Below are positions 1 to 18,131 of a stretch of DNA of 21,979 nt, in pieces (the stretch's first letter is position 1; every line of letters starts with the position of its first letter). Under the pieces are notes generated by a model, which worked only from the letters and a program-made list of their open reading frames with translations, made no database searches and was not told where the DNA came from. The DNA is from a virus, in the IMG/VR virus record IMGVR_UViG_3300035206_000286, positions 1-21,979 of that record; one strand, written 5' to 3'. The position numbers and the translations under genes are program-made.

Positions 1-1299
1 TCTGCTGGACATGCTACACTTGATATTAAGTCAAGTGATAAATCAGAGTCGCATATACAAAAACGAGATAGAGATAATACTATTGTTGTAGGTGACAGTG
101 GTGGCTTTCAAGTTGCTAAAGGTGTGCTAAAGTTTCCGTGGGATAAGTTTAAGGATCCAGGCGGCAAGTGTGATGAAGTGCGTATTAAAATATTAAAGTG
201 GCTAGAGCACACAGCAGACTGGAGTATGATATTAGACGTTCCAAGTTTTAGTATACATTTTGACACAGGACTTAAAACATTCAAAGAGTGTCTAGAATAC
301 ACTTGTCATAACAATGATTTCTTTATGGAATGGCGTACACCAGGTGCTACTAAATTTCTTAATGTATTGCAAGGCAATGATTTGCGTACAGCAGACCAAT
401 GGTATGATGCTGTTAAAGGTTATTCAGATCCAAAGATACACGGTGAGAAAGCATTTGAAGGTTGGGCAATGGGCGGAGAGAATATGAGATGGTGGTATCT
501 CATATTGTATCGTATGATTAAGTTGCGTGATGATGGATTGCTTGAAAACAAAGACTGGTTACATTTTTTGGGTACAAGTCATCTACAAGCGGCAATACAA
601 TTAACAGCAATTAAACGCAACCTTGTTAAAATTAACCCTAACCTGGAAGTAAGTTTTGATAGTGCCAGTGCGTTTATGAGTGTTGCAAAAGGATTGTGCT
701 ACGAGCACAATTCATACAAACCAAAGAGGTTTGCATTTGTAATGGAAGCGGCAAAGGATAATAAAAATTATGTAGGTATGGATGAGCCATATACTACGCC
801 GTTTGTTAATAAGGAAGGTAAAACAGTATCAATGGAGCACAGTATAATTATGCATCCAACAGAGGATACTTACCTTAAGACAAGTGATATATGTGTAAGG
901 GGAACAGATTTTGAAAGTAAGACGTCTTGGGACAGTTTATCCTATGTTCTTATTATGGCGCACAATGCTTACCAACATATTACTGCCGTGCAAACTGCAA
1001 ATGAGTTATGTGATGCGAGAGACTTTAGTAAAGTTCCTGCTAACGTTATTGAATTTGTGGATGTTACTAATGAAGTATTCCAATCGGAAAAACCAATGGA
1101 AGTAATTGACAAACATAAAGGATTACTTAATCAGTTAAGTGTTGCAAAGTTTTCAGGTGCACCTCGACGTACTTTATTAGAGGAGTTTCATGAGTCGGGA
1201 TTAGTAGATCATATGCCCGGCCCTGGTAAAAAATTAGAGAAGCCTCCGACACGAGAATTAGAAAAAAATACATTTAGTGATTTATTTGAGGAGGTATAA
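1..1299 (+). CDS. dpdA: DpdA-type 7-deazaguanine DNA transglycosylase (TGT-like), 5'-truncated
   Basis: The reading frame is open from base 1, so the N-terminus lies outside the window; 432 codons are visible. It resembles tRNA-guanine transglycosylases, which swap guanine for a 7-deazaguanine. Visible TGT-like landmarks, counted from the first codon here: GDSGGFQ at about 31-37 (general-base Asp), ILDVPS at 77-82, VLQG at 122-125 (base pocket), AMGG near 156-159, and a FDSAS stretch near 219-223 whose Asp fits the covalent nucleophile. The C-terminal CxCxxC zinc site of tRNA enzymes is not seen; a SDIC...SWDSLSY...AHNAYQH stretch occupies that area. Zinc-site loss together with phage FolE/QueD/QueE fits DpdA, which acts on DNA. 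The DNA target is inferred from context; a phage tRNA-acting TGT is the alternative. A coiled-coil gene follows closely. Confidence 0.8.
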   Translation, partial: SAGHATLDIKSSDKSESHIQKRDRDNTIVVGDSGGFQVAKGVLKFPWDKFKDPGGKCDEVRIKILKWLEHTADWSMILDVPSFSIHFDTGLKTFKECLEYTCHNNDFFMEWRTPGATKFLNVLQGNDLRTADQWYDAVKGYSDPKIHGEKAFEGWAMGGENMRWWYLILYRMIKLRDDGLLENKDWLHFLGTSHLQAAIQLTAIKRNLVKINPNLEVSFDSASAFMSVAKGLCYEHNSYKPKRFAFVMEAAKDNKNYVGMDEPYTTPFVNKEGKTVSMEHSIIMHPTEDTYLKTSDICVRGTDFESKTSWDSLSYVLIMAHNAYQHITAVQTANELCDARDFSKVPANVIEFVDVTNEVFQSEKPMEVIDKHKGLLNQLSVAKFSGAPRRTLLEEFHESGLVDHMPGPGKKLEKPPTRELEKNTFSDLFEEV

Positions 1300-1313
1300 A
1301 ATGGAGATATTGT

Positions 1314-1502
1314 ATGAACAAAACCGCAGGGTTAAAACTCAAAAATCTTATAAAAGAACACAGGATGTTGGATTGGGAAATTAAGAAGTTACAAGCATTA
1401 AGACCGTATAAGGACGATGAGATTAAAGTATTAAAAAAGAAAAAGTTGTTAATTAAAGACTCAATTGAAGTATTAAAAAATGATAATAGACAGACCGTAT
1501 AG
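1314..1502 (+). CDS. Small coiled-coil protein, YdcH/DUF465-like
   Basis: A 62-aa, Lys-rich, helical protein. It carries the spaced pattern typical of the DUF465/YdcH family: EHRMLDWEIKKL in the first half, then an acidic turn and LKKKKLLIKDSIEVL in the second. Family members are short antiparallel coiled-coil hairpins of unknown function, common in proteobacteria and present in phages. The start is supported by GGAG 8 bases upstream (1302-1305). A competing ATG at 1301 opens only a 26-codon frame. The gene lies between the DpdA-like gene and an unrecognised gene it overlaps by 23 bases. The family match is from pattern memory. Confidence 0.7.
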   Translation: MNKTAGLKLKNLIKEHRMLDWEIKKLQALRPYKDDEIKVLKKKKLLIKDSIEVLKNDNRQTV

Positions 1503-2037
1503 TGAAGAGCACACAGGAGAAGTACATTATTTTATAGGCAGTGAAGTTGAACACACTCCTGCTTATGGTATGAAAACTTTATTTGTTGTTGGCGTTAAAG
1601 AAATAGACGAAACTTTGCGGTTAGCAAAGGAACATGATATTGAGCACATATTTTTAGGTGCTAATCAAAGTTACAATCCAAGAACAGATGATGACCAACA
1701 TCTTGAGTGGGATATTTTTACAACAGAAGTTACAAGAAAATTTAAAGGATATGTTACATTAGATTTTAATATAGATAGTATACAGGGAGTATACGAATAT
1801 AGGTGCTGTGAATATCACAATTTTATTCCGCTAATAAGTATTAAAGTTCCACATGTGAATTTGCTAAATTATAATGCTTGTGTTAAAATAGATGATGTAG
1901 GATTTAATGATACTAATCCAGGTGTATGGGTGCAACAGGTAAGAGACTTGTTAGATAGTAATAAATTTACACCGTGGATGAAATATAAAAACGATAAAAT
2001 AATTCAGGGAGATAAAAATGTCAGAGAAGACGAGTGA
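1480..2037 (+). CDS. Conserved-looking phage protein of unknown function, 185 aa
   Basis: I do not recognise this gene with confidence. The 185-aa product has no signal peptide or membrane segment. Alternating hydrophobic strands and helices (KTLFVVGV, HIFLGAN, GYVTLDFN, FIPLISIKVP) suggest a compact alpha/beta fold. A conserved-looking N-terminal stretch (YFIGSEVEHTPAYGMKTLFV, about residues 17-36) and a CC pair near 109-110 are visible. It overlaps the coiled-coil gene by 23 bases and the ClpP-like gene by 20 bases, so translation is probably coupled. No strong Shine-Dalgarno is seen before the ATG at 1480. Its place directly after the DpdA-like gene makes a role in base modification possible, but that is guilt by association only. 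Confidence 0.7.
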   Translation: MIIDRPYSEEHTGEVHYFIGSEVEHTPAYGMKTLFVVGVKEIDETLRLAKEHDIEHIFLGANQSYNPRTDDDQHLEWDIFTTEVTRKFKGYVTLDFNIDSIQGVYEYRCCEYHNFIPLISIKVPHVNLLNYNACVKIDDVGFNDTNPGVWVQQVRDLLDSNKFTPWMKYKNDKIIQGDKNVREDE

Positions 2038-2599
2038 TAAAAGCAATGATGGTCAATCCCCAGGGCAATTATTATGGGAGAACAGTATATATTATTTCTC
2101 AGATGACTTTACATCAAAGTCAACTGCGCCAGTTATTAAATTTATAATGGAAAAGAATCTTATGCCTCGCAGTTCGAGACCAAGTGAACTTACTTTAATA
2201 ATTAATAGTCCTGGTGGTCACGTACATGCGGCATTTGCTCTTATAGATGTAATGAAAGGATCAAGCATTCCAGTTAAAACAGTAGGACTAGGTATGATTG
2301 CTTCATGTGGCATTTTAACATTTATGGCCGGGCAAAAAGGAAGTAGAATACTTACACCGAATACCTCAATACTGTCGCATCAATATAGTTGGGGTTCGCG
2401 TGGTAAGGAGCATGAACTGTATGCTGTAATGCGAGAGTTTGAATTAAGTACAGAAAGGATGCTTGCTCATTATAAGAAGTGTACTGGCTTAAATGAAAAG
2501 AAGATTAGAGAAATTTTACTTCCACCACAGGATGTATGGTTAAGTGCTGAAGAAGCAGTAAAATATGGTATTGCAGATTCTATTAAGAAAGTGTATTAA
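2018..2599 (+). CDS. clpP: ClpP-like serine protease
   Basis: A 193-aa protein of normal ClpP length with the full catalytic triad: Ser96 in GMIASCG (canonical GxASxG), His121 in LSHQ, and Asp172 in PPQDVWLSAEEAVKYGIAD, which closely follows the ClpP C-terminal signature. The oxyanion-region motif INSPGG is at 62-67. AGGGAG lies 6 bases before the ATG. ClpP forms a tetradecameric peptidase fed by ClpX or ClpA unfoldases; none is visible here, so it would have to use a host unfoldase or act alone on peptides. In other phages ClpP-fold proteases mature the prohead, but the small-gene neighbourhood gives no capsid context. Cytoplasmic: no signal peptide. Confidence 0.9.
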   Translation: MSEKTSDKSNDGQSPGQLLWENSIYYFSDDFTSKSTAPVIKFIMEKNLMPRSSRPSELTLIINSPGGHVHAAFALIDVMKGSSIPVKTVGLGMIASCGILTFMAGQKGSRILTPNTSILSHQYSWGSRGKEHELYAVMREFELSTERMLAHYKKCTGLNEKKIREILLPPQDVWLSAEEAVKYGIADSIKKVY

Positions 2600-2606
2600 T
2601 TAAGTA

Positions 2607-2783
2607 ATGAAAAATGAGTTGGAAGAGATTAAAGAACTTGCTCAATCTTGTTTAGATAATCTCAACGAGCGACATTATTATAGATCACCAAATGAAGCAA
2701 ATACCATTGACAATCTCAAAAATATTGTTATAATAATAAACAATAAGCAAACTAAAAAACAAAAAAAGAAAAAGCAGAAATGA
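2607..2783 (+). CDS. Small basic hypothetical protein, 58 aa
   Basis: A 58-codon frame begins with KNELEEIKELAQ and ends in a strongly basic Lys/Gln tail. It is probably helical. It starts 7 bases after the ClpP-like stop, and its stop overlaps an ATG at 2780. No clear Shine-Dalgarno is present, so translation could depend on coupling to clpP. The lysine tail could bind nucleic acid, but nothing identifies a function. It fills an otherwise empty gap, which supports it modestly. Confidence 0.5.
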   Translation: MKNELEEIKELAQSCLDNLNERHYYRSPNEANTIDNLKNIVIIINNKQTKKQKKKKQK

Positions 2784-2827
2784 ATGGCAAGGATCCATAC
2801 GATACAATATGTCAGAGGAACATACAC

Positions 2828-3199
2828 ATGAATGAACACAGAATGATTTGGGTCACTTTTCAGAAGGAAGGTGTACATAAATATCCAGCGGCTTTAGAGG
2901 ATCCTAACCTTGCTACTGGAGATGAATATGATGTATCTTTTTTAGGGTACCCTCATCGACATACATTTCACTTTAAGGTTTGGATTGAAGTATTCCATGA
3001 CGATAGAGATATTGAGTTTATACAATTCAAACGTTGGATGGAACATTTATATGAAGGGACTTTACAACTTGATTATAAGTCTTGTGAAATGATTGCTGAT
3101 GGTTTGTATGAGGAAATTAATGTAAAGTTTCCAGATAGAAAAGTACATATTGAAGTTTCAGAAGATAACGAAAATGGTTGTTTTATTCAATATCCATAA
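2828..3199 (+). CDS. QueD/PTPS-like T-fold protein without the catalytic cysteine
   Basis: The T-fold (tunnelling fold) pattern of 6-pyruvoyl/6-carboxy-tetrahydropterin synthases is readable. It has an N-terminal strand with VHKYPAA, then GYPHRHTFHF (an HxH metal-ligand motif), DIEFIQFKRWME (in place of the DF-xx-LK segment), CEMIADGLYEEI (in place of TxEnlaxxl), and a final strand IEVSEDNENG with Glu where the family has WET. The cysteine that normally sits a few residues before HxH is absent, so the usual synthase chemistry is doubtful. An upstream in-frame ATG at 2780 would give 139 aa. AGAGGA at 2814-2819, 8 bases before 2828, favours the 123-aa form. I recall similar proteins in T4-like cyanophages. 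Role unknown; a pterin-binding or deazapurine-pathway partner is inferred from fold and neighbours. Confidence 0.65.
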   Translation: MNEHRMIWVTFQKEGVHKYPAALEDPNLATGDEYDVSFLGYPHRHTFHFKVWIEVFHDDRDIEFIQFKRWMEHLYEGTLQLDYKSCEMIADGLYEEINVKFPDRKVHIEVSEDNENGCFIQYP

Positions 3200-3217
3200 A
3201 ATATAGTGCTCGCGACC

Positions 3218-3225
3218 AATAAATA
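3218..3225 (+). promoter_or_regulatory. Candidate T4-type late promoter box (AATAAATA)
   Basis: AATAAATA differs from the T4 late consensus TATAAATA at one position. It lies 58 bases before the ATG of an isolated gene in an intergenic gap. Transcription would start near 3231 and give a leader of about 53 bases. That leader contains a 5-bp inverted repeat (TCGCC 3232-3236 / GGCGA 3253-3257) and a TAGGAG ribosome binding site. No TTGACA box accompanies it. Confidence 0.5.
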
Positions 3226-3283
3226 CTAATGTCGCCAATTGTTGAACCGGTAGGCGATAATTTTAACCTAGGAGAAACAAAAT

Positions 3284-3586
3284 ATGGCAGCTCGTCGATT
3301 ATTTCGATTTGCAGGTAGTACTCGCTGGAAAGGTATTGGACCTATTCATATCGGTGACATAACTAATGTTACCGACCATGGCTCAATTACAAGTGCAGCT
3401 AGTGTATGGCCTGGTGTTATGACATCAGGCACTTCAACTCAGTCACGTGGCGGTGTTGGTAAAGGTATAACATCTTTAATCAACCAGGATCGTACTTGGG
3501 TTGACAACATGGACTATGGAAAGGGAGCGTATGGCTTTAATAGCGCCAAACCTTCTAATTCAACCGATTTTGGTAGTGTTGCCTAA
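3284..3586 (+). CDS. Small Gly/Ser/Thr-rich protein, possible virion component
   Basis: A 100-aa protein, rich in Gly, Ser, Thr and Asn, with a basic N-terminus (AARRLFRFAG) and little predicted helix. TAGGAG lies about 9 bases upstream of the ATG. It stands alone between a late-type promoter box and a strong terminator, so it is probably transcribed by itself and late. This arrangement and the composition are those of small virion decoration, tail or neck proteins, but no family is recognised and the structural role is inference. No cysteine, signal peptide or membrane segment is seen. Confidence 0.75.
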   Translation: MAARRLFRFAGSTRWKGIGPIHIGDITNVTDHGSITSAASVWPGVMTSGTSTQSRGGVGKGITSLINQDRTWVDNMDYGKGAYGFNSAKPSNSTDFGSVA

Positions 3587-3607
3587 TAATCGTTCGAAAG
3601 GTGTAGG

Positions 3608-3643
3608 GGATCCTGATAAGGCCTTATTGGGATCCTTTTTTTT
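3608..3643 (+). terminator. Strong rho-independent terminator
   Basis: A near-perfect 12-13 bp hairpin: GGATCC-TG-ATAA pairs with TTAT-TG-GGATCC (including two G-T wobbles) around a GGCC loop. Eight T residues follow (3636-3643). It ends the free-standing unit at 3284 and directly precedes the promoter that starts the next operon. Confidence 0.93.
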
Positions 3644-3644
3644 C

Positions 3645-3673
3645 TTGACATGATCAATATAGTATGTTATTAT
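3645..3673 (+). promoter_or_regulatory. Sigma70-type promoter, TTGACA-17-TATTAT
   Basis: A perfect -35 (TTGACA, 3645-3650) is followed after 17 bases by TATTAT (3668-3673). An alternative -10, TATAAT at 3671-3676, gives spacing 20. It sits directly after a terminator and just before the small ORF and glycosyltransferase operon. The start site would fall at about 3680, at or next to the ATG at 3681. The same promoter type recurs at 16399, 16909, 18092 and 20973. Confidence 0.88.
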
Positions 3674-3680
3674 AATATAA

Positions 3681-3914
3681 ATGTATGGACCATTACCAAA
3701 AAATGGTATGAAATATAGAAACGGACAACAAATAGTTCTAAAAAATCTTAATACCAATAAAGAAACTACTATTAAAATAGTTATGTATGATAGTCGGCAA
3801 GGCTGGCTAGGTGAACATATTAAAACAAAAGATTGGGAATGGTACCGTGAAAATAATGAATACAATCCTAATGAAGTTCATTGGGAGTTTGTAAAAGAAA
3901 TAAAAAGGAAATAA
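3681..3914 (+). CDS. Small hypothetical protein, 77 aa
   Basis: A Lys/Glu/Trp-containing soluble protein that I do not recognise. An N-terminal strand region (KYRNGQQIVLKNLNTNKETT) could form a small beta barrel similar to KOW/SH3-like folds, but this is weak. It is the first gene after a strong promoter and has no Shine-Dalgarno. The predicted transcript begins at or beside its ATG, so it may be read from a leaderless mRNA. A second in-frame ATG at 3708 (codon 10) is the alternative start. The glycosyltransferase gene follows after a single base. Confidence 0.65.
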   Translation: MYGPLPKNGMKYRNGQQIVLKNLNTNKETTIKIVMYDSRQGWLGEHIKTKDWEWYRENNEYNPNEVHWEFVKEIKRK

Positions 3915-3915
3915 C

Positions 3916-5088
3916 ATGCGTAAATTATTTTATATGGGATTAGAACCCTACGAAGGACGTTATACTTTACAGTTACAAAATTGGAATGAACAAGTATTTA
4001 AGCAGAGAGAAATTGATTATATTTTAGTGCCAGGTAAGACATTAGATAATAGTAAAGCAATTGTAACAGGACAAGTACTTGATGCTCATGGTCGCAGTTA
4101 CTTTGGTATGAGTCAAGTAATGAACCTTGTTAAAATGATGCGTGAAGGTGAGGTAACTGCTGGAGATGTTATCTTCTTTGAGGATATGTTCCAGCCAGGT
4201 ATCGAAAGCCTTCCATACATTATGGATCAAGTTCCTGAAACTATGCGTCCGAAAGTATATGTAAGGTGCCTAGCACAAACAATAGATCCAGATGACTTTG
4301 TTCATGTGTGGGGAATGTATCCTTGGATGAGCAAGTATGAGCAAATGGTAGATGCATTTGTTGATGGTGTTATTTGTGCAAGTGAGGAGATGGTTGCTAA
4401 CTTACATGTTGCAGGATGGAAAGCAAACAAGTATGTAACAGGATTGCCATTTGGTAAAGAGGAAGTACAAAGCAGAGTTAAAGAGATTGCTCCGTTTGAC
4501 AATCGTTCAAAGAGAGTAGTGTTTGCCGCACGTTGGGATCAAGAGAAGCAACCAAATTTTTATATGGATTTAATTGAAACATATCTTGAGGATTTTGATC
4601 CAGAGGTAGAGTTTTATCTTCTGAGTGGCGGAGAGTTGCGTAGTAACAATGATGAATATATGGAACGTACAAAACAGTTAGCCCAAGCAGGCAAACTTCG
4701 TGTACAAGAAAATTTACTTAAAGATGAATACTATGATGTACTTTCTAAAAGTAGGGTTTTATTTAATTGTGCCTTACAAGATTGGGTAAGCAATACAGTC
4801 AGTGAAGCAGATGCTTTAGGCACTAATGTTTTGTATCCTGCGTATCGTAGTTTTCCAGAGACGTTTGCAAATGATGCAGATAGACTATATATTCCGTGGA
4901 GCATTACTGATGCTTGTAATAAATTATGGATGTTACTAGATCTCCAACATGAAAATATAGGAAAAATTAGTGATTATCAAGATAATACAATTAATAGGAC
5001 TGTTGATATTTTTGAAGGCAACGGTGAGGAATATTTGAGATCTGGCACTGACTATAGAAAATATACAGCAATAAACAAATATGAATAG
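3916..5088 (+). CDS. GT-B glycosyltransferase (GT4-like)
   Basis: A 390-aa protein with the two-domain look of GT-B glycosyltransferases. The C-terminal half carries the donor-site pattern: VVFAARWDQEKQPNF (about 201-215, Arg and Lys that usually contact phosphates), a FYLLSGG strand (233-239), and WVSNTVSEADALGTNVLYPA (290-309). A D-x7-E pair (Asp289/Glu297) stands where GT4 enzymes usually show E-x7-E. AAGGAA lies 5 bases before the ATG. It overlaps the GalE-like epimerase gene by 8 bases, so a sugar nucleotide made by the epimerase is probably its donor. The acceptor is unknown: modified DNA, a virion protein or host glycans are all possible. Cytoplasmic, with no membrane segment. Confidence 0.82.
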   Translation: MRKLFYMGLEPYEGRYTLQLQNWNEQVFKQREIDYILVPGKTLDNSKAIVTGQVLDAHGRSYFGMSQVMNLVKMMREGEVTAGDVIFFEDMFQPGIESLPYIMDQVPETMRPKVYVRCLAQTIDPDDFVHVWGMYPWMSKYEQMVDAFVDGVICASEEMVANLHVAGWKANKYVTGLPFGKEEVQSRVKEIAPFDNRSKRVVFAARWDQEKQPNFYMDLIETYLEDFDPEVEFYLLSGGELRSNNDEYMERTKQLAQAGKLRVQENLLKDEYYDVLSKSRVLFNCALQDWVSNTVSEADALGTNVLYPAYRSFPETFANDADRLYIPWSITDACNKLWMLLDLQHENIGKISDYQDNTINRTVDIFEGNGEEYLRSGTDYRKYTAINKYE

Positions 5089-6139
5089 TGCAAGTGTAAT
5101 TCCGTTTCCAGCAACAGATCATGGTCCACATGTAATTGTTACTGGTGGTAGTGGTTATGTTGGTGGGCATATTTGTAAAGCATTACGTATTGCAGAATAT
5201 GTTCCTATTAATATTGATCGTAGGATTACCTCATGGTCAGATAAATGGGGGCCATTTTATAATGGAGACTTTCAGCCGGGTTCTGAAGTTATACAAGAAG
5301 TTTTAAAAGCACATAACGTAGTTGCCGTAATACATTGTGCCGCAAATAGTCTTGTTGGTCCTAGTGTTAGTGAGCCTTCTATATATTATAAAAATAATGT
5401 AATAAACACAATTTATTTTTTAAATTATCTTAAAGACAATGGTGTTAATAATTTTGTGTTTAGCAGTAGCAGTAGTGTATATGGTAATCAAGAAGTAGTA
5501 CCTATAAAAGAAGATGCTGTACTTAAACCGTTAACAAGTTATGGTCGTAGTAAACAAATGATAGAAGGTGTGTTACAAGATTATGATACAGCATATAAGC
5601 TTCGTAGTGTATCGTTAAGATATTTTAATGCTTGCGGTGCAGACTTTGATCAAGAAGTAGGTCAAGTGAAAGATGCTACACATGTTATAGCAAAGATATT
5701 AGAATTAGTATTAGATTGTGACACTACGGTTAGATCAAACTCAATTGCTAGGCCTCCCTTTTATGTATATGGAACAGATTACAATACGCCTGATAGTACT
5801 TGTGTTAGAGATTATACCCATGTTTGGGATTTGGCATTGGCACATGTAAAAGCAGTAGAATATTTAGTTAATGGTGGACAAACAGAAATAATAAATTTAG
5901 GAGCAGGACAAGGGCATGGCATTTGGGGTATACTTGATAGTGTAAACAAAGTAGTAAAATGGTTGCCTGAAATTAAAAAGGGAGACAGGCGCCCAGGTGA
6001 TCCAGAGATGGTTATTGCAGATATTTCTAAAGCAAAAGAAGTATTAGACTGGGTTCCTGAGCACTCAGACCTAAATACAATCATAGAAACTGCTTGGAAA
6101 TGGTACAATAGTGAGAATTTTATAAGGAGAACAGAATGA
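5081..6139 (+). CDS. galE: NAD-dependent nucleotide-sugar epimerase, GalE-like
   Basis: An extended SDR epimerase of 352 aa, close to the usual 330-350. The Rossmann glycine motif TGGSGYVG is at 21-28. The catalytic Ser region SSSSVYG is at 129-135, YGRSK (Tyr154-x3-Lys158) is the catalytic pair, YFNACGAD matches the GalE YFNxxGA motif, and CVRDYTHVWDLALAH matches the late GalE signature RDYxHVxDLAxAH. UDP-glucose 4-epimerase or a close hexose/pentose epimerase is the best call; the substrate cannot be fixed from sequence. It overlaps the glycosyltransferase gene by 8 bases and has no Shine-Dalgarno of its own, so translation is likely coupled. It probably supplies that enzyme's donor sugar. 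Confidence 0.88.
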   Translation: MNSASVIPFPATDHGPHVIVTGGSGYVGGHICKALRIAEYVPINIDRRITSWSDKWGPFYNGDFQPGSEVIQEVLKAHNVVAVIHCAANSLVGPSVSEPSIYYKNNVINTIYFLNYLKDNGVNNFVFSSSSSVYGNQEVVPIKEDAVLKPLTSYGRSKQMIEGVLQDYDTAYKLRSVSLRYFNACGADFDQEVGQVKDATHVIAKILELVLDCDTTVRSNSIARPPFYVYGTDYNTPDSTCVRDYTHVWDLALAHVKAVEYLVNGGQTEIINLGAGQGHGIWGILDSVNKVVKWLPEIKKGDRRPGDPEMVIADISKAKEVLDWVPEHSDLNTIIETAWKWYNSENFIRRTE

Positions 6140-6285
6140 AAACAAGAAATGAAATGATTAGAGATTTTTATTTAAAAACTAAAAAGATAGATTCTTCTAA
6201 ACCTCGGCCGCAAACAGGTCCTAACGCATCGTTTATGGGTGAGATGAATAAGCCAAATAAAAAGGAAAAGCATGAAAATAAGTGA
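6136..6285 (+). CDS. Small hypothetical protein, 49 aa
   Basis: The 49-aa frame starts within the epimerase stop (ATGA overlap) and has a very good ribosome binding site, AAGGAG at 6124-6129, 6 bases upstream. It runs 14 bases into folE. The product is basic and polar (PRPQTGPNASFMGEMNKPNKK near the C-terminus) and looks unstructured. No family is recognised. The strong initiation signal and the lack of a gap on either side support it as real. Confidence 0.65.
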   Translation: MKTRNEMIRDFYLKTKKIDSSKPRPQTGPNASFMGEMNKPNKKEKHENK

Positions 6286-6946
6286 TCAAATAAGGCAACG
6301 CATAGAGAAAGCGGATGCTGACTTTAGATGTAATAACAATATATCAGACTATATTAATGTTGGAGACTTAGATCTTTTACAGGCTGAAGTAGAATCTAAA
6401 GTACAAGATCTTTTACACACATTAATCATAGACACTGAACGAGATCATAATACACAAGAGACAGCAAAACGTGTAGCGAAAATGTATGTTAAAGAAATTT
6501 TTAGAGGAAGATATGAACCGCTTCCAAAGATAACTGCGTTTCCAAATATGGGTTACCAGAGTATGTACACAAGTGGTCCAATAAGTGTTAAGTCAACTTG
6601 TGCCCATCACTTTCAAAGTATAGTTGGTAAAGCATGGGTAGGCATTATACCTAATGATGAGGTTATAGGATTGAGTAAGTTTAACAGGCTTGTTCATCAC
6701 ATTGCGGAACGTCCACAGATACAAGAGGAGATGACTTCGCAGATAGCAGACGCATTAGTACAGTTTGCTAAGACACCTAATATTGCTGTAGTGGTTAAAG
6801 CAGAACATATGTGTATGACACACAGAGGTGTAAGAGAGCACGAGTCGGATATGACTACTGCTATAATGCGTGGAGCATTCTTTGATGACCCAGCCGCGAA
6901 ACAAGAGTTTTATAATATTTGTATGAGTATGAAAGGACATGGTTAG
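6272..6946 (+). CDS. folE: GTP cyclohydrolase I
   Basis: Converts GTP to dihydroneopterin triphosphate, the first step of both folate and 7-deazaguanine (queuosine/preQ0) synthesis. The 224-aa length is normal. Zinc and catalytic residues are all present: Cys110 and His113 in STCAHHF, and Cys181 in AEHMCMTHRGV. The IGLSKFNRLV segment and the ERPQIQEEMTSQIADAL helix are typical of the family. AAGGAA lies a few bases before the ATG. The next gene, a phosphoribosyltransferase, overlaps by 8 bases. QueD and QueE follow within 1.4 kb, so the likely job is feeding the deazaguanine pathway rather than folate. Confidence 0.96.
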   Translation: MKISDQIRQRIEKADADFRCNNNISDYINVGDLDLLQAEVESKVQDLLHTLIIDTERDHNTQETAKRVAKMYVKEIFRGRYEPLPKITAFPNMGYQSMYTSGPISVKSTCAHHFQSIVGKAWVGIIPNDEVIGLSKFNRLVHHIAERPQIQEEMTSQIADALVQFAKTPNIAVVVKAEHMCMTHRGVREHESDMTTAIMRGAFFDDPAAKQEFYNICMSMKGHG

Positions 6947-7484
6947 AAAAGAATATTATTCAGTAGGCAAAGTTAAAGGTCTTGTTTTAGATATTATCAA
7001 ACAGATGTACCAAGACACTTGGAAACCTGATTTCATTGTAGGTATTAATCGAGGTGGTTTAACTCCAGCAGTAATGATGAGTCATTTTATGAATGTACCA
7101 ATGTTTACTTTAGATATACAATTACGTGATCATACAAGAGCACCAGAATCTAATCCAATGATGCCATTAGATGCAATGGACGGTAAGCAGATTCTTATTG
7201 TAGATGATATAAATGACAGCGGCGCAACATTTAATTGGATTGTTAATGATTGGACAATGGCATTGTCACCAGAATTTGTACAAAACCATTTGCCATACTT
7301 GCCAGACGAACGAAAAGTTTTGTGGAGACGCAATGTAAGGTTTGCTGTGCTTACAGAGAATCTTGCAAGTGAGTTTAATGATGTTGATTATTGTGTAGAG
7401 GAAGTTAATAAAGCAGAAGATGATGTTTGGATTGTGTTCCCTTGGGAACAATGGTGGGGTATAAATTTCGATGAGGAGAAATAA
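6939..7484 (+). CDS. Type I phosphoribosyltransferase, purine-PRTase-like
   Basis: A 181-aa protein with the PRPP-binding loop ILIVDDINDSGATF (about 85-98), the upstream loop FIVGINRGGLTPA (32-44), and a late WIVFPWE segment as in xanthine/guanine PRTases. Such enzymes join a purine base to PRPP to give a nucleotide, or in related proteins bind PRPP for regulation. It overlaps folE by 8 bases and precedes the small membrane ORF and queD. Salvage of guanine to raise GTP for FolE, or handling of a deazapurine base, is plausible; the substrate is not readable. Exact specificity is uncertain. Confidence 0.82.
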   Translation: MVRKEYYSVGKVKGLVLDIIKQMYQDTWKPDFIVGINRGGLTPAVMMSHFMNVPMFTLDIQLRDHTRAPESNPMMPLDAMDGKQILIVDDINDSGATFNWIVNDWTMALSPEFVQNHLPYLPDERKVLWRRNVRFAVLTENLASEFNDVDYCVEEVNKAEDDVWIVFPWEQWWGINFDEEK

Positions 7485-7485
7485 A

Positions 7486-7632
7486 ATGTTAGGATTAAAA
7501 AGTGGTGAAAAAGCAATTTGGTTAATCAGTTGTTCTATAGCAGTAGTAGCAGTTACTACGTTATCATTGACGCTGTTGAGTTGGGCAAATGGTAATGCAG
7601 GAACATTAGCAAAATTTGTGTGGGGTTATTAA
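7486..7632 (+). CDS. Small single-pass membrane protein, 48 aa
   Basis: A 48-aa frame with a good Shine-Dalgarno (GAGGAG, 7473-7478, 7 bases before the ATG). It fits exactly between the phosphoribosyltransferase and queD, whose ATG follows the stop directly. A short basic N-terminus (LKSGEKA) is followed by a hydrophobic segment at about residues 11-33 (IWLISCSIAVVAVTTLSLTL), then a short polar tail. The topology suggests one transmembrane helix in the inner membrane. A membrane protein inside a nucleotide-modification operon is unexpected. It may act in lysis, lysis inhibition or host exclusion; no homology is recognised. Confidence 0.7.
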   Translation: MLGLKSGEKAIWLISCSIAVVAVTTLSLTLLSWANGNAGTLAKFVWGY

Positions 7633-8112
7633 ATGAGCGATTATGTACCAGAGTTTACCTCTACTAAAACATTCCACAACTTCCCATGTGCTCATAGACA
7701 ACATAAGCACGATGGGAATTGTCATTTGATACACGGCTATAGTCGTAGTTTTCATATTGTATTTGGCGCACAAACAATGACAAAGGAAGGATTCCTTGTT
7801 GACTATGGCGACTTGGATGAAGTAAAGCATTGGTTAGATGAAAATTATGATCATACACTTGTAATTGATCATGATGATCCGTGGATGGCAACATTTCAGG
7901 AACTACACAATGCAGGTGTGTGTAAGTTAATAGTACAAGAGGAAGGCCCAGGCATGGAAGGTACAGCATTCCGTATTTGTACGTGGGTAGATGCTTGGTT
8001 GCGTGAGCGAACCAATGGACGAGCATGGGTTATTAGTGTTGAAGCCAGAGAAAATGACAAGAACAGTTCAATTTATACTAATCCAGATGCTGGATTTAAA
8101 GGATGGGAATAA
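7633..8112 (+). CDS. queD: 6-carboxytetrahydropterin synthase-like protein (QueD)
   Basis: QueD turns dihydroneopterin triphosphate into 6-carboxy-tetrahydropterin, the second step to 7-deazaguanines. The family pattern is clear: FPCAHRQ (zinc His21), catalytic Cys30, the LIHGYSRSF region, LVDYGDLDEVK (equivalent to the family's MVxDFxxLK), YDHTLVI with the Asp-His pair (73-74), and a C-terminal VEARE strand. Length 159 aa is slightly longer than bacterial QueD (about 120-140). The zinc motif is HGY (34-36) instead of HGH, so one expected metal ligand is a tyrosine. GGGG lies 7 bases upstream of an ATG that directly abuts the previous stop. Context (folE, queE) supports QueD over mammalian-type PTPS. 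Confidence 0.88.
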   Translation: MSDYVPEFTSTKTFHNFPCAHRQHKHDGNCHLIHGYSRSFHIVFGAQTMTKEGFLVDYGDLDEVKHWLDENYDHTLVIDHDDPWMATFQELHNAGVCKLIVQEEGPGMEGTAFRICTWVDAWLRERTNGRAWVISVEARENDKNSSIYTNPDAGFKGWE

Positions 8113-8300
8113 TGAAAGATACAAAAGTAGAACAGAATATTAATGATGTGGTAATGCTTACAGCAAAAATTAATGGTATTTGTAAAGAGTTAAAAAAAGA
8201 AAATGTACTTCTTAGATTTGAAATGAATCATAATATTAGTGAGGAAGATACTATTGCAGTTTCGGAAGCAATACAACGAGTTAATTATTTAGAAGACTGA
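8112..8300 (+). CDS. Small hypothetical protein, 62 aa
   Basis: A helical 62-aa protein (TAKINGICKELKKENVLLRFEM, then an acidic SEEDTIAVSEAIQRV helix) of unknown function. The start at 8112 overlaps the queD stop (TAATG), with AAAGGA at 8098-8103 placed 8 bases upstream; an in-frame ATG at 8103 would sit right on that site and is less likely. Its stop overlaps the queE ATG by one base, so it lies between queD and queE in a translationally coupled chain. Confidence 0.65.
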   Translation: MKDTKVEQNINDVVMLTAKINGICKELKKENVLLRFEMNHNISEEDTIAVSEAIQRVNYLED

Positions 8301-9151
8301 TGAAAAAATTTAGAGTTACAGAAGTTTTTTATAGTGTCCAAGGAGAAGGGCAGTTTGTTGGTGTGCCTTCTGTATTTTTACGAGTGTTTGGATGTAATTT
8401 TAAGTGCGAAGGATTTGGAATGCCAGCAGGTGAATCAAGTAAAGAACGCTTAAATATAAATCTAAATGATTATAATAGTTTTGAGGACTTACCACTTGTA
8501 ACAACTGGTTGTGATAGTTATGCTAGTTGGGATCCACGATTTAAACGTTTTACAACTGACATTGAAACAGATGCGTTAGTAGAATTATTATTAGAACACA
8601 CACCAACAGGAGATTGGATAACAGAAACAGGCCAAAGTGTACATTTAGTTATTACCGGTGGAGAACCGTTGTTAGGATGGCAACAAAAATGGCCTGAATT
8701 ATTTAGACATCCAAAAATGAGGAATTTAAGACATGTCACATTTGAAACAAATTGTACACAGGTACTTAGAAAGCACTTCAGAGATTTTCTTATCCATGAA
8801 GCAGAATTTCATACTACTTTTTCATGCAGTCCGAAACTTTCCGTATCAGGCGAGTCTTGGAGTGATGCAATTAAGCCTGAAGTTGCTTTGGATTACTATA
8901 ATGTTTTTGACAGCAGTATGTATTTCAAGTTTGTTGTCGCTAATGAAGTGGATATGGAAGAAGTTGACAAAGCTGTCAATGAATACCGGAACGCCGATGT
9001 TGTCGTCTCTGTCTATTGCATGCCAGTCGGCGGGTGCAAAATGGAGTATATGGAGAACAGAGCAAAGGTTGCGGAAATTGCGATGAAAAAAGGTTATAGG
9101 TATTCACCAAGATTGCATATAGATTTATTTGGAAATCAATGGGGAACATAA
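8300..9151 (+). CDS. queE: 7-carboxy-7-deazaguanine synthase, radical SAM (QueE), phage form
   Basis: QueE contracts 6-carboxy-tetrahydropterin to 7-carboxy-7-deazaguanine using S-adenosylmethionine and a 4Fe-4S cluster. Family signs: VFYSVQGEGQFVGVPSVFLR at the N-terminus, TGGEPLL at 119-125 (SAM contact), HVTFETNC (145-152) and SCSPKLS. The cluster cysteines are unusually spaced: Cys32-x3-Cys36, then the next candidate Cys71 after 34 residues, in TTGCDSYASWDPRF, instead of the usual compact motif. I recall the same spacing in T4-like cyanophage QueE-like proteins. It overlaps the preceding small gene by one base and the lyase gene by one base. Codon choice in the last 90 codons looks richer in G/C-ending codons than in the first half. 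Confidence 0.88.
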   Translation: MKKFRVTEVFYSVQGEGQFVGVPSVFLRVFGCNFKCEGFGMPAGESSKERLNINLNDYNSFEDLPLVTTGCDSYASWDPRFKRFTTDIETDALVELLLEHTPTGDWITETGQSVHLVITGGEPLLGWQQKWPELFRHPKMRNLRHVTFETNCTQVLRKHFRDFLIHEAEFHTTFSCSPKLSVSGESWSDAIKPEVALDYYNVFDSSMYFKFVVANEVDMEEVDKAVNEYRNADVVVSVYCMPVGGCKMEYMENRAKVAEIAMKKGYRYSPRLHIDLFGNQWGT

Positions 9152-9975
9152 TGAATAGATTTTTTATATTTTTTGTATTGTTATTTCTACATAGTGGTAT
9201 AGGATATGCCGATACAAGTATATTGCGTGTGGATAATAATAGAGGTCCTTGGATGGACACCGTTGACGAAGGAGCAAGGGATTATGCTTATACAAGAGTA
9301 ACAGATTTCTCACGCAAAGGCCCTACGTCGTTAAGGTTTGAAGTACGCAGTGGTGATTGTTTTACAGCATATCCTAATAATCCAAGTAGAGGCTGGGATG
9401 ATTGTACAAGGCACAGAGAACGAGCAGAGGTTAGAGAAAAATGGACAGCAACATGGGATAAGCCTATCTGGTATGGGATAAGTATTTATATACCAAATAA
9501 CTATAATTTTTTATATCCTAAACAAATTATTTTTCAATGGCACAGAGGAGAACAGCCTGTAGCATATATGAAACTTGAAAGAAAGAATTTAAAATTTGAC
9601 ATCCTAACTGAATTAGGGCGATCGACATCTATATATGATTTAGGTAATGTATTTGAAATGGGATGGGCAGGTAAATGGATAGATGTACTATGGAATGTTA
9701 ATTGGAGTGTGGATGACACAGGATATTTATATATGTGGATTAATGACAGGCAAGTAATTCAACATCGTGGTGCTACAACTGACAAAGAAAAAGGTAAATG
9801 TGTTGCATCTAATGGAAATTGCGGACCATTTGCAAAGTATGGTATATATAGATCGCATTTGTTTCGCTATGAAGGCGGAGAGGATAATCTTCCTACACAA
9901 GTATTATTCTTTGATGAGTATAGGCGAGGGCATACTCGTGAAGAAGTAGATGTAGAAGTAAACGAGGGTAGTTAA
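9151..9975 (+). CDS. Exported polysaccharide lyase-like protein
   Basis: A 274-aa product with a clear signal peptide: basic start, hydrophobic FFIFFVLLFLHSGIG, and a likely cut after GYA (residue 20). The body resembles the beta-jelly-roll polysaccharide lyase family PF14099: GPTSLRFEVRSGD, HRERAEVREKW, IWYGISIYIPNNY and QIIFQWHRGE follow the family's order of strands. These enzymes cleave uronic-acid polymers by beta-elimination. An upstream in-frame ATG at 9139 would bury the signal peptide; 9151 (TAATG overlap with queE, GGGGA just before) is preferred. Export would place it in the periplasm or outside the host. Host capsule breakdown or lysis help is inferred. No tail-fibre domain is fused. 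Confidence 0.72.
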   Translation: MNRFFIFFVLLFLHSGIGYADTSILRVDNNRGPWMDTVDEGARDYAYTRVTDFSRKGPTSLRFEVRSGDCFTAYPNNPSRGWDDCTRHRERAEVREKWTATWDKPIWYGISIYIPNNYNFLYPKQIIFQWHRGEQPVAYMKLERKNLKFDILTELGRSTSIYDLGNVFEMGWAGKWIDVLWNVNWSVDDTGYLYMWINDRQVIQHRGATTDKEKGKCVASNGNCGPFAKYGIYRSHLFRYEGGEDNLPTQVLFFDEYRRGHTREEVDVEVNEGS

Positions 9976-10380: not shown

Positions 10381-10666
10381 TCCTGGCGTCCAGCAGATAA
10401 TTGATATACTTAGGCCATACCAGACAGAAGCAATCATTAATTATGCATCTTTAAAACAAGTAATGAGATTTATAACAAGAATAGAAAAATGTAGTCGCTC
10501 AAAGAAAATAAAGCACGATGTTGAATTAGTAAGAACTTTAATAAAACCAATGATGATAACAGCAGAAGAAAAAGAGAAACGAGATATTGAATTAAAAAGG
10601 TTTTGGTATGGCCCTCATTACATGATGTCAAGGGAAGAGTACGAAAGTAAAAATAAAAATGAATAA
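10358..10666 (+). CDS. Hypothetical protein, 102 aa
   Basis: A basic, mostly helical protein (SLKQVMRFITRIEKCSRSKKIKHDVELVRTLIKPMM in the middle, then a charged KEKRDIELKRFWYGPHYMMSREEYE end). It overlaps the preceding gene by 23 bases and the radical SAM gene by 8, so it belongs to the same transcript. A CGGGA element lies a few bases before the ATG. No family is recognised; the basic helix could contact nucleic acid. Confidence 0.65.
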   Translation: MAKQKSTNPGVQQIIDILRPYQTEAIINYASLKQVMRFITRIEKCSRSKKIKHDVELVRTLIKPMMITAEEKEKRDIELKRFWYGPHYMMSREEYESKNKNE

Positions 10667-11807
10667 GTATCTTGCTATAGATAATATTAAATCTATACAA
10701 ATAGATCATACAAGTAGATGTAATTGCTTGTGCCCGCAATGTGCAAGAGTAAATAATGGTGTTATCAATCCTCGTATGCCAATTGATGAATTAACTGTAG
10801 AGGATTATAAAGTTATTTTTCCAAGTACAATAATAAAACAAGTTGAACTAATAACACAATGCGGTAATTATGGAGATATTGTAGCAAGTAATACTATTTT
10901 AGATTGTTTGGAATGGCTACGTGAAAATGGTTCTACAGCACATATAAACATTATGACTAATGGTAGTGCAAGAAATGCGGATTGGTGGAAACGGTTAGCA
11001 TCTATAATTGGTTTAAATGGTAGAGTAACATTTAGCATAGATGGGTTGGAAGACACAAACCATTTATATCGTGTTGGTGCTAACTGGAATAAAATTATTA
11101 AGAATGTTAGTACATACATAGAAAACGGTGGTAGGGCACGTTGGGATTATTTAATATTTGATCACAATCAACATCAAGTAGAGGAAGCAGAGAAATTAGC
11201 ACGTGAAATAGGGTTTGAAAGTTTTTATGTTAAAAATACAAGCAGATTTATTAATGACAAAAACTATTTAACTGGTAAGGTATCTGAGGAAGAAACATTA
11301 AAGCAACCAACTGATGAAAAATATCGATCGACAAGCAGTGAAAAATTTGTTAATATAATAGATAAACATGAGACATGGGAAAATTATATAAATGAAACAA
11401 CAATTGATTGTAAGTTTCAGAAACAGAATGCATTGTTTGTTGATTTTCAAGCAAGGCTCTGGCCATGTACATGGGTAGCGGCACCGATACATTTTGCTAA
11501 AATTGATAATATACAGACAAAACAAATACACAGTTTAATGAAACATTACGGAGCAACATTTAATAGTTTACGACATTATACTTTAGAAGATGTATTAACA
11601 CATGAATGGTTTGCAAGTAATTTAGTTAGTAGTTGGGAAACAGATGAGAAACTTATGACGTGTGGCAGAACATGTGGTACTGACTATGAGTTTAGTAGTC
11701 GTGCTCCAGCAAACAGTAAGTTAACAAAGTTTAAGATATTAACAAAAAAGTATGGATGGATCAAAGAAGGTGATGAACACTTTAGCGAGTATGAGGCAAT
11801 GCAATGA
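10659..11807 (+). CDS. Radical SAM protein with SPASM-like C-terminus
   Basis: A 382-aa enzyme with the radical SAM motif SRCNCLCPQC: Cys21-x3-Cys25-x2-Cys28 bind the 4Fe-4S cluster that cleaves S-adenosylmethionine. TQCGNYGD (67-73) stands where many members have a GGEP-like motif; NIMTNGS and VTFSIDGL are typical barrel strands. Four later cysteines (Cys251, Cys270, Cys335, Cys339) could hold an auxiliary cluster, as in SPASM/twitch proteins that modify peptides or carry out complex chemistry. It is distinct from QueE. The substrate is unknown; modification of a base, nucleotide sugar or peptide is possible. It overlaps its neighbours on both sides (8 and 4 bases). Confidence 0.82.
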   Translation: MNKYLAIDNIKSIQIDHTSRCNCLCPQCARVNNGVINPRMPIDELTVEDYKVIFPSTIIKQVELITQCGNYGDIVASNTILDCLEWLRENGSTAHINIMTNGSARNADWWKRLASIIGLNGRVTFSIDGLEDTNHLYRVGANWNKIIKNVSTYIENGGRARWDYLIFDHNQHQVEEAEKLAREIGFESFYVKNTSRFINDKNYLTGKVSEEETLKQPTDEKYRSTSSEKFVNIIDKHETWENYINETTIDCKFQKQNALFVDFQARLWPCTWVAAPIHFAKIDNIQTKQIHSLMKHYGATFNSLRHYTLEDVLTHEWFASNLVSSWETDEKLMTCGRTCGTDYEFSSRAPANSKLTKFKILTKKYGWIKEGDEHFSEYEAMQ

Positions 11808-13923: not shown

Positions 13924-14140
13924 ATTTCATCACATTAGAAAATTAAATGGGTTGTACGATGTTGCAGTTGAGCATCAAAATAACGAGATTCGACTTCATA
14001 CAGCAGATGTAGGACTTGTTTTATCTGATATTAATAAATTATTGTCATTAGTTGTTAATGGGCAACTAGAACAACAGTTAACTCAGGAATTTCATCGGTA
14101 TGATGATAAGACACCCGATGTAGATGGGGGTTATTTTTAA
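13913..14140 (+). CDS. Small hypothetical protein, 75 aa
   Basis: A soluble 75-aa protein beginning LDKFHHIRKLNGLYDVAVEHQ and continuing with a likely helix (VLSDINKLLSLVVNGQLEQQL). It overlaps the preceding gene by 11 bases and lies just before the HtrA-like gene, whose preferred ATG is 10 bases after its stop. A weak AAGAAAG ribosome site precedes the ATG. No family is recognised. Confidence 0.65.
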   Translation: MLDKFHHIRKLNGLYDVAVEHQNNEIRLHTADVGLVLSDINKLLSLVVNGQLEQQLTQEFHRYDDKTPDVDGGYF

Positions 14141-14150
14141 GAGAAAAATT

Positions 14151-15281
14151 ATGTTAAAACTAAAGAAAAATTTTATTATTAGTTATATGCTTTTAATTGG
14201 TATGATAATTTTACCAATAAATGCAAATGCTACAAATCAAAATGCATACATTGATATATATAAAAATGCTGTTAATGCAGTTGTGACTATTATTGTTGTA
14301 GCAGAAAATAGTTCTATTACAGATGTATTAAATACGATACCAAAAGATTCTCCTTTTAATAAGTTATTTGAAGAGGAAGGCGAACAAATTACACCAAAGA
14401 TGTATGGGTCAGGTTCTGGTTTTATTGTATCTACTGATGGTATGGTGTATACTAATCATCATGTTATATCAGAAAAAGAAGCATCAATGGTAGTAACAGA
14501 AATACATATTTTATGGGAAAACGGCGAATCACGCAAGGCAGAAGTAGTAGCAAGCGACGAAATTGCAGATTTTGCTATTTTACAGATTATAAAAGATGAA
14601 CCAAATGAAACATTTGATTACGTTACATTAGCAGATAGTGATAAAGTGTTGCCAGGACAAATGGTAGCGGCAATTGGTAGTCCATTAAATCATAGTTTTA
14701 GTATTACATCTGGTATTGTTAGTGCAATAAACAGAGAATCAAGGAAAGGGCGGTGGGTTACATATATACAAACTGATACAGTAATTAATAAAGGTAATAG
14801 TGGTGGACCATTATTTGATCTTAATGGTAATGTTATTGGTATGAATACTATGTTAGTTAGTCCGTCTGGTTATTATATAGGTATTGGTTATGCTGTACCT
14901 TCTAATTTAATGAAAGAACTTGCTGATGTATTATTAGTTGAAGGTGAATTTATACGTCCATGGATAGGAGCATCTTTGTCTATACCATCTGAAGAATTTA
15001 AACAACAAATGGATATACTAATTGATAAGCCAGTTGTTGTACTCATACGGATAGCACCAGCTGGGCCTAGTTATGATGCCGGATTAGAAAAATATGATGT
15101 TATAATGTCAGTTAATAACGAAGAAATGAATCCAGATGCATTTATTGAATTTATACAAGGTAGTAACGTAGGTGATGTTGTAAAGTTACAGATACGCAGA
15201 GTATTAGATTACGATAAAGGAACATATAACGATTTAGAAATAGAGATTATTATTGGTAATATGCCGCCTACGGAACAATAA
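14151..15281 (+). CDS. Exported HtrA/DegP-like serine protease with PDZ domain
   Basis: A trypsin-fold periplasmic protease of 376 aa. A signal peptide (Lys-rich start, hydrophobic FIISYMLLIGMIILP, likely cut after NANA, residue 27) leads to the catalytic triad: His104 in TNHHVIS, Asp140 in DEIADFAIL, and Ser217 in NKGNSGGPL. YGSGSGFIVS (85-94) precedes the first motif as in DegP. One PDZ domain occupies roughly residues 268-368, with RIAPAGPSYDAGLEKYDVIMSVN. HtrA proteases degrade or refold damaged envelope proteins. An upstream in-frame ATG at 14124 would add nine residues; AAGAGA 8 bases before 14151 supports the shorter form. An exported HtrA is unusual in a phage; bacterial origin is inferred. 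DegP has two PDZ domains, while DegS-like proteins have one. Confidence 0.92.
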   Translation: MLKLKKNFIISYMLLIGMIILPINANATNQNAYIDIYKNAVNAVVTIIVVAENSSITDVLNTIPKDSPFNKLFEEEGEQITPKMYGSGSGFIVSTDGMVYTNHHVISEKEASMVVTEIHILWENGESRKAEVVASDEIADFAILQIIKDEPNETFDYVTLADSDKVLPGQMVAAIGSPLNHSFSITSGIVSAINRESRKGRWVTYIQTDTVINKGNSGGPLFDLNGNVIGMNTMLVSPSGYYIGIGYAVPSNLMKELADVLLVEGEFIRPWIGASLSIPSEEFKQQMDILIDKPVVVLIRIAPAGPSYDAGLEKYDVIMSVNNEEMNPDAFIEFIQGSNVGDVVKLQIRRVLDYDKGTYNDLEIEIIIGNMPPTEQ

Positions 15282-18089: not shown

Positions 18090-18091
18090 GA

Positions 18092-18120
18092 TTGACAACA
18101 TCCTTAAATCAGCGTATAAT
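18092..18120 (+). promoter_or_regulatory. Sigma70-type promoter, TTGACA-17-TATAAT
   Basis: Perfect consensus boxes at 18092-18097 and 18115-18120 with ideal 17-base spacing, beginning 2 bases after the MoxR-like stop. The predicted start near 18127 leaves only about 5 bases before the ATG at 18132. Confidence 0.9.
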
Positions 18121-18131
18121 AAGTATATAAA

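Follow-up and report, generated by a model that had tools for sequence, protein, structure and literature searches.

A recurrent phage gene cassette without QueC, predicted to place a 7-deazaguanine, possibly bearing a sugar, in DNA

Positions 1 to 9151 of the IMG/VR record IMGVR_UViG_3300035206_000286, a virus fragment analysed over its entire length of 21,979 bases (the window), carry a cassette of genes that probably puts a 7-deazaguanine in place of guanine in the DNA of the phage. The cassette encodes a DpdA-type enzyme with the fold of the tRNA-guanine transglycosylases (TGT), together with FolE, a QueD-like protein and QueE, on one strand within 9 kb. This arrangement, first noticed in the original prediction, is borne out by the positions of the open reading frames (ORFs) and by their Pfam and PHROG matches, and the deazaguanine in phage DNA that the prediction derived from it is supported as probable by gene content and TGT fold, from which we infer the chemistry. 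The same prediction overlooked a glycosyltransferase (GT), a second QueD-fold protein (phrog_17812), a phosphoribosyltransferase (PRT), an epimerase and a family of 185-residue proteins (o185), all of which recur with DpdA. The gene content, the TGT fold and its catalytic residues, the QueD-like fold of phrog_17812, the absence of QueC and the recurrence of the set were computed directly.

The TGT-like ORF lacks its 5' end because the record starts inside it: a 90%-identical protein from the related record L002 begins 68 residues earlier. It has no Pfam, PHROG or NCBIfam match at E <= 0.001, and none of the four matches obtained with phmmer among PDB sequences was convincing; its TGT identity is drawn from a structure model computed for a full-length relative and from profile comparison with the DpdA2 family. 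The relative, L018, belongs to a family alignment of 56 rows, and its model (mean predicted local distance difference test, pLDDT, 89.7) matches known structures with a best Foldseek E-value of 1.6e-8, all 50 matches listed being TGTs, and compares with 2ash_A at a VIA Z of 18.9 and a root-mean-square deviation of 4.6 over 302 residues. The motif DSGG(x)Q and the residues equivalent to Asp79 and Asp220 of the window are invariant in 56 of the 56 rows, the window ORF possessing DSGGFQ at residues 32-37 and the catalytic Asp220; the roles of the catalytic Asp pair and of the base-pocket Asp are presumably those of the Z. mobilis TGT. The tRNA-type zinc motif CxCxxC occurs in 0 of the 56 rows, and the enzyme without a tRNA-type zinc site described in the original prediction stands confirmed at the level of its family. 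As modelled, the ORF is a DpdA-type enzyme with a TGT fold and conserved catalytic residues, predicted to act on DNA. The protein CGPG_00065 of phage phiST, tried as a TGT relative, reached E-values of 0.0055 and 0.039 only and is at most a candidate.

By sequence, the window transglycosylase family is separate from the enzyme of Escherichia phage CAjan and from DpdA2, the two families with which it was compared. Among 15 genomes, its profile matches only Pseudomonas phage PA5oct, Phosso and Vibrio phage 2.275.O, whereas nt-1, ACP17, BUCT-ZZ01, X1 and Moby, unmatched at E <= 0.01, are all matched by the DpdA2-type profile. With respect to the DpdA subfamily, which the original prediction had left to a profile comparison, the enzyme is therefore not a DpdA2 of the nt-1 type by profile, but hhalign gives a remote link between the two families (probability 91.6).

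The cassette recurs as a set. Of at least 581 confirmed relatives found by the DpdA profile, 80 loci were kept, 40 of them with at least 9 kb downstream; these 40 loci contain GT (38), phrog_17812 (38), FolE (35), o185 (32), PRT (29), QueE (29), the epimerase (15), QueD (9) and QueC (0, with a profile seeded on the QueC of 2.275.O). Every cassette hit in the 80 loci lies on the same strand as DpdA. In the reverse search, the best 80 of 386 confirmed GT loci, 62-68% identical to the window protein and sharing nine contigs by name with the DpdA set, all contain FolE, QueE, QueD or phrog_17812, with DpdA in 72, phrog_17812 in 77 and QueC in 0; a second GT profile matches 18 of these 80 contigs. 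Among 50,697 phage records, tblastn detected the GT in 15, every one of which is also hit by the window DpdA (11) or by DpdA2 (4). A profile search added Phosso, the GT then occurring in five of the 13 genomes searched, with QueC over cut-off in none of the five. In BUCT-ZZ01, ACP17 and X1, GT and phrog_17812 are located near DpdA2 instead, and because both also stand beside DpdA2 their link with DpdA is not only a matter of descent within one lineage. In the DpdA2 cassette of Stenotrophomonas phage Moby, a gene annotated as inositol-3-phosphate synthase (L010:8982-10232) occurs between folE and queC.

FolE, QueD and QueE convert GTP to 7-carboxy-7-deazaguanine (CDG), from which QueC produces preQ0, according to a passage of PMC13329287. 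QueC has no match in the window record, itself only 21,979 bases long. QueC was also sought in eight records (PA5oct, Phosso, BUCT-ZZ01, ACP17, L002, X1, Moby and 2.275.O): the complete relatives PA5oct, Phosso, BUCT-ZZ01 and ACP17, and the short L002 record, gave no match; X1 gave one of 16.2 bits, under the cut-off; and 2.275.O and Moby passed it. The four complete genomes possess FolE and a QueD-type gene, and keep QueE too. Among 50 relative contigs (50 of 80), four have QueC-like matches at E <= 0.01. All four are partial, spanning some 60-90 positions among the first 91 of the profile, and a single one exceeds the cut-off, narrowly (22.7 bits, cut-off 22); by eye, we take the ORF of this one and one other to resemble NadE, and the remaining two to resemble other PP-loop proteins. 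Since the complete relatives and nearly all relative contigs searched are devoid of QueC, its absence from the window, which the original prediction had reported, is a real feature, and the missing gene looks like a trait of the lineage as judged by sequence. For the same reason, of the two candidates proposed earlier for the inserted base, the carboxy compound or a product derived from it becomes the likelier, and preQ0 supplied by a host or off-window QueC the less likely.

The enzymes that would lead to CDG depart from the canonical motifs. The QueD-like protein, which scores 71.6 bits with PF01242 against a cut-off of 22.4, reads CxxxHGY in place of CxxxHGH, a Tyr replacing the last His; HGH is found in the QueD of CAjan and in gp230 of PA5oct, and the HGY type in 13 of the 16 QueD-like (PF01242) family hits. 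A PF01242 gene occurs in 16 of the 50 relative contigs, most of which are fragments. PA5oct contains three proteins of QueD type or fold, namely an HGH QueD (L095:9207-9725), an HGY QueD (L095:11502-11972) and phrog_17812 (L004:14574-14951). In QueE, the cluster motif CxxxCxxC is replaced by CxxxCxxF followed by a third Cys (residue 71) 35 residues past the second, and by GCD; Cys 32, 36 and 71 are invariant among six phage QueE, and the displaced pattern occurs in 29 of 38 QueE hits, the other nine being partial or different and none showing CxxxCxxCD.

The fold of phrog_17812 is visible only by structure. The best Foldseek match of its model (mean pLDDT 91.2) is the QueD of E. coli (E 3.6e-6), and VIA gives Z values of 13.1 with P. 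horikoshii PTPS, 12.2 with E. coli QueD and 11.5 with dihydroneopterin aldolase. The T-fold is secure, the QueD subtype less so because the aldolases score close behind QueD. By hhalign the link with QueD is weak (probability 83.4, and 42.8 with a broader set), and a profile search of PDB gave E-values of 0.15-0.98, mostly with bacterioferritin, which were taken as chance. The residues invariant over 50 rows include His33, His59, His61 and Glu128, and the motif CxxxHxH occurs in 0 of 72 family members; the HGY-type QueD and phrog_17812 differ in which part of the canonical motif they lack, so that the two might conceivably form a mixed oligomer. The protein was found in 26 phage records, grouped into 11 lineages of which one record each was searched, and QueC exceeds the cut-off in just one. 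The fact that phrog_17812 and QueC are almost never found together suggests, from gene occurrence, that phrog_17812 acts at the step where QueC would. Over 13 genomes, phrog_17812 against QueC gives a Fisher p of 0.007, to which no weight is attached because CAjan and nt-1 had been picked as known QueC carriers. Depending on the phage, the domain also occurs at the C-terminal end of longer ORFs, as in Vibrio phage Bakedbeans (L125:4058-5209) and Chryseobacterium phage MA9V-3 (L126:3165-4046), both devoid of any Pfam match.

Within the GT family, PF00534 is matched at E <= 0.1 by 29 of 50 members (best 2.7e-9) and an R...EK motif occurs in 59 of 69 hits; the GT profile had no match among PDB sequences at the limits used. 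To look for sugar genes, all genes from 101 loci were grouped by single linkage and one representative per cluster was typed by Pfam. Downstream of DpdA by median position, an epimerase occurs in 25 loci, a cytidylyltransferase-like gene (its cluster representative fused to a mannose-6-phosphate isomerase domain) in 21 and a member of the UDP-glucose dehydrogenase family in 12, and a MocA-type oxidoreductase and an alcohol dehydrogenase co-occur in the same 13 loci. The epimerase is the only sugar-nucleotide gene of the window. This recurrence of GT and sugar-nucleotide genes with DpdA is the main reason for proposing a glycosylation. The protein o185 has no convincing match in Pfam or among PDB sequences by profile search at the limits used; its derivation from a QueE domain was unsupported (probability 0.3), and the "glycosylase" gp222 of Phosso, tried as an o185, did not match.

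From these genes we infer substrate, order of steps, reaction of phrog_17812, nature and attachment of the sugar, guanine salvage and protection from restriction. FolE, the QueD-type enzyme and QueE would make CDG, with no QueC to give preQ0, and phrog_17812 would probably act at the CDG branch, where it might remove the carboxyl group or carry out some other conversion of CDG. DpdA would then swap guanine in DNA for the resulting base, and the guanine set free may be salvaged by the PRT, a conjecture based on its family. The putative GT-B-type enzyme, fed by sugar-nucleotide enzymes of the cassette such as the epimerase, would add a sugar to the base in DNA, either as a carboxylate ester or as a C-glycoside, both being conceivable. 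That this scheme holds as a whole, with a hypermodified, sugar-bearing 7-deazaguanine as its product, we rate at slightly under an even chance; that it represents a widespread QueC-free pathway, with phrog_17812 replacing QueC at CDG and a dedicated GT-B enzyme glycosylating the inserted deazaguanine, is a proposal to be held somewhat more tentatively.

Queuosine in tRNA can be glycosylated, and the proposed DNA base would be its counterpart in DNA. To our knowledge, the C7 substituents of the phage 7-deazaguanines described so far are small. Attached to this base, a sugar would define a DNA hypermodification of a new class and make a bulkier barrier to nucleases. For phage cytosine, a passage of PMC12783734 describes a carboxyl group serving as the handle for hypermodification, which sets a precedent. 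Deazaguanine without QueC is not new. For the recurring combination of GT, QueD-fold protein and sugar genes, as for a sugar-bearing 7-deazaguanine, a search by title or abstract start, with subscription journals mostly outside it, retrieved no description. The set is present in sequenced, cultured phages (Synechococcus phage BUCT-ZZ01, Sinorhizobium phage Phosso, ACP17 and the PA5oct group), and it suggests functions for phrog_17812 and for genes annotated as hypothetical in their genomes.

Several results weigh against the glycosylated, QueC-free scheme. The window GT stays under the Pfam cut-off, with E 0.0054-0.04 for the Glycosyl transferases group 1 models, and sugar genes accompany only part of the loci (epimerase in 15 of 40). 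Neither DpdA profile matches in six of the 11 phrog_17812 lineages, which indicates that phrog_17812 also occurs with other insertion enzymes or with none; four of the nine lineages searched for the GT lack it, and in D479, a phage with phrog_17812, a partial match to QueC exceeds the cut-off (32.8 bits). In X1, a PAPS-reductase-family protein adjoining folE might stand in for QueC. Among 17 loci of bacterial or archaeal genomes with the window DpdA family, 10 have no cassette gene in the stretch covered and seven have the GT. One of the seven speaks in favour of the scheme: the Azospirillum contig L110 (L110:6110-9380) unites DpdA, a GT in convergent orientation and a Vut_1 (YhhQ-type) transporter, with an integrase-like gene, itself under cut-off, at a distance of some 5 kb, and is possibly a bacterial island with the same modification; L103-L108, binned as bacterial or archaeal metagenome-assembled genomes with the phage cassette, are likely phage contigs in bins. 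Finally, the locus counts are not independent because many loci come from related phages.

The closest competitor is a plain base, either deoxy-CDG (dCDG) or its decarboxylated form (dDG), with phrog_17812 acting as the CDG decarboxylase DpdL or as a helper of QueD, and with GT and sugar genes serving another base or the surface. The absence of QueC fits this explanation, as does the QueD-like fold of phrog_17812, a protein also present in Cellulophaga phage phiST and in further phages in which the search for this GT family gave no match. It is nevertheless unlikely, to the extent of a serious minority view, given that the GT is tied to the cassette (80 of 80 GT-found contigs with a deazaguanine-pathway gene or phrog_17812) and accompanies either type of DpdA. 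Still less probable is that a host or off-window QueC turns the phage CDG into preQ0, which DpdA would insert as dPreQ0, the extra genes being unrelated. The window is a fragment, and host QueC could supply preQ0; S. elongatus, the species infected by BUCT-ZZ01, was included as a control genome and has a QueC match. Phage 2.275.O combines a relative of the window DpdA with QueC, QueF and a vitamin-uptake-type transporter, and has neither GT nor phrog_17812. However, four complete relatives retain FolE, a QueD-type gene and QueE without QueC, and QueC passes the cut-off in only one of 11 phrog_17812 lineages. An action on tRNA, by which the genes would raise the queuosine of the host, has the TGT fold in its favour and is highly improbable: CxCxxC is missing from all 56 rows, the same cassette accompanies DpdA2, which stands in for the enzyme, and in L002 the gene of the enzyme lies downstream of a DNA polymerase. 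In the phage of the nt-1 member of DpdA2, 7-deazaguanines have been measured in the DNA, according to a passage of PMC6884629.

Positions 1 to 9151 of the window encode, in order along the + strand and separated here and there by a few small ORFs, the TGT-like ORF, a 62-residue DUF465 ORF, o185, a ClpP-type protease, phrog_17812, the 390-residue GT-like protein, the epimerase, FolE, the PRT, the QueD-like protein and QueE (Table 1). A polysaccharide lyase is encoded at 9139-9975 and, just beyond the cassette, a second radical SAM protein at 10659-11807 (Pfam E 8.3e-5 and NCBIfam matches, all under cut-off), followed by a trypsin-like protease with a PDZ domain (14124-15281) and, at 16974-19412, by an AAA ATPase and then a DUF2201 metallopeptidase/VWA protein.

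Table 1. Features of the cassette, with their positions in the window and the evidence for each assignment.
Feature	Position	Strand	Evidence
DpdA-type transglycosylase (TGT fold), 5' end missing	1..1299	+	Family invariants; structure model of relative L018
o185, 185-residue family recurring in the cassette	1480..2037	+	Present in 32 of the 40 loci that extend 9 kb or more downstream
phrog_17812, second QueD-fold (T-fold) protein	2780..3199	+	phrog_17812 E 1.5e-32; model pLDDT 91.2; Foldseek; VIA
Putative GT-B-type glycosyltransferase	3916..5088	+	Glycosyl transferases group 1 models, under cut-off; PF00534 in family
Nucleotide-sugar epimerase	5081..6139	+	PF01370 E 1.4e-44; phrog_540
FolE, GTP cyclohydrolase I	6272..6946	+	PF01227 E 1.9e-49
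Phosphoribosyltransferase, nearest curated model xanthine PRT	6939..7484	+	PF00156 E 7.3e-15; NCBIfam xanthine PRT E 3.3e-11, under its cut-off
QueD-like, CxxxHGY variant	7633..8112	+	PF01242 E 7.3e-20; phrog_2389
QueE, radical SAM, CxxxCxxF...GCD variant	8300..9151	+	phrog_2076 E 9.7e-53

Among the known systems, Escherichia phage CAjan exhibits DpdA-dependent insertion (dPreQ0) and protection from restriction, as described in a passage of Hutinet 2019 (PMC6884629). Like the FolE-QueD-QueE-QueC-DpdA pathway of CAjan, the window combines FolE, a QueD-type enzyme and QueE with a TGT-fold protein that lacks the Cys motif of the tRNA type; unlike CAjan, it has no QueC, its DpdA belongs to another sequence family, and GT, phrog_17812, o185, PRT and sugar genes are added. 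In 2023, Cui reportedly described dCDG and dDG as bases of phage DNA and DpdL as a CDG decarboxylase. We know of no GT cassette in these QueC-less phages. The QueC-less Mycobacterium phage Bipper could carry the substrate of QueC, according to a passage of Hutinet 2019 (PMC6884629). The window resembles both Bipper and the dCDG/dDG phages in having CDG as the likely branch point in a pathway without QueC. The deazaguanine system of Pseudomonas phage PA5oct is already in print (PMC7824862), in a passage which itself makes no mention of a GT. As in the window, PA5oct assembles the same DpdA family, GT, phrog_17812, PRT and QueE in one region, whereas its FolE and two PTPS-type genes are located elsewhere in the genome. 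In phages of the T4 type, a glycosyltransferase glucosylates hydroxymethylcytosine already present in DNA. The proposed likeness to the present cassette would consist in a phage glycosyltransferase decorating a base within DNA; in contrast to T4, the base would be another one, and the Pfam matches of the window enzyme are of the Glycosyl transferases group 1 type.

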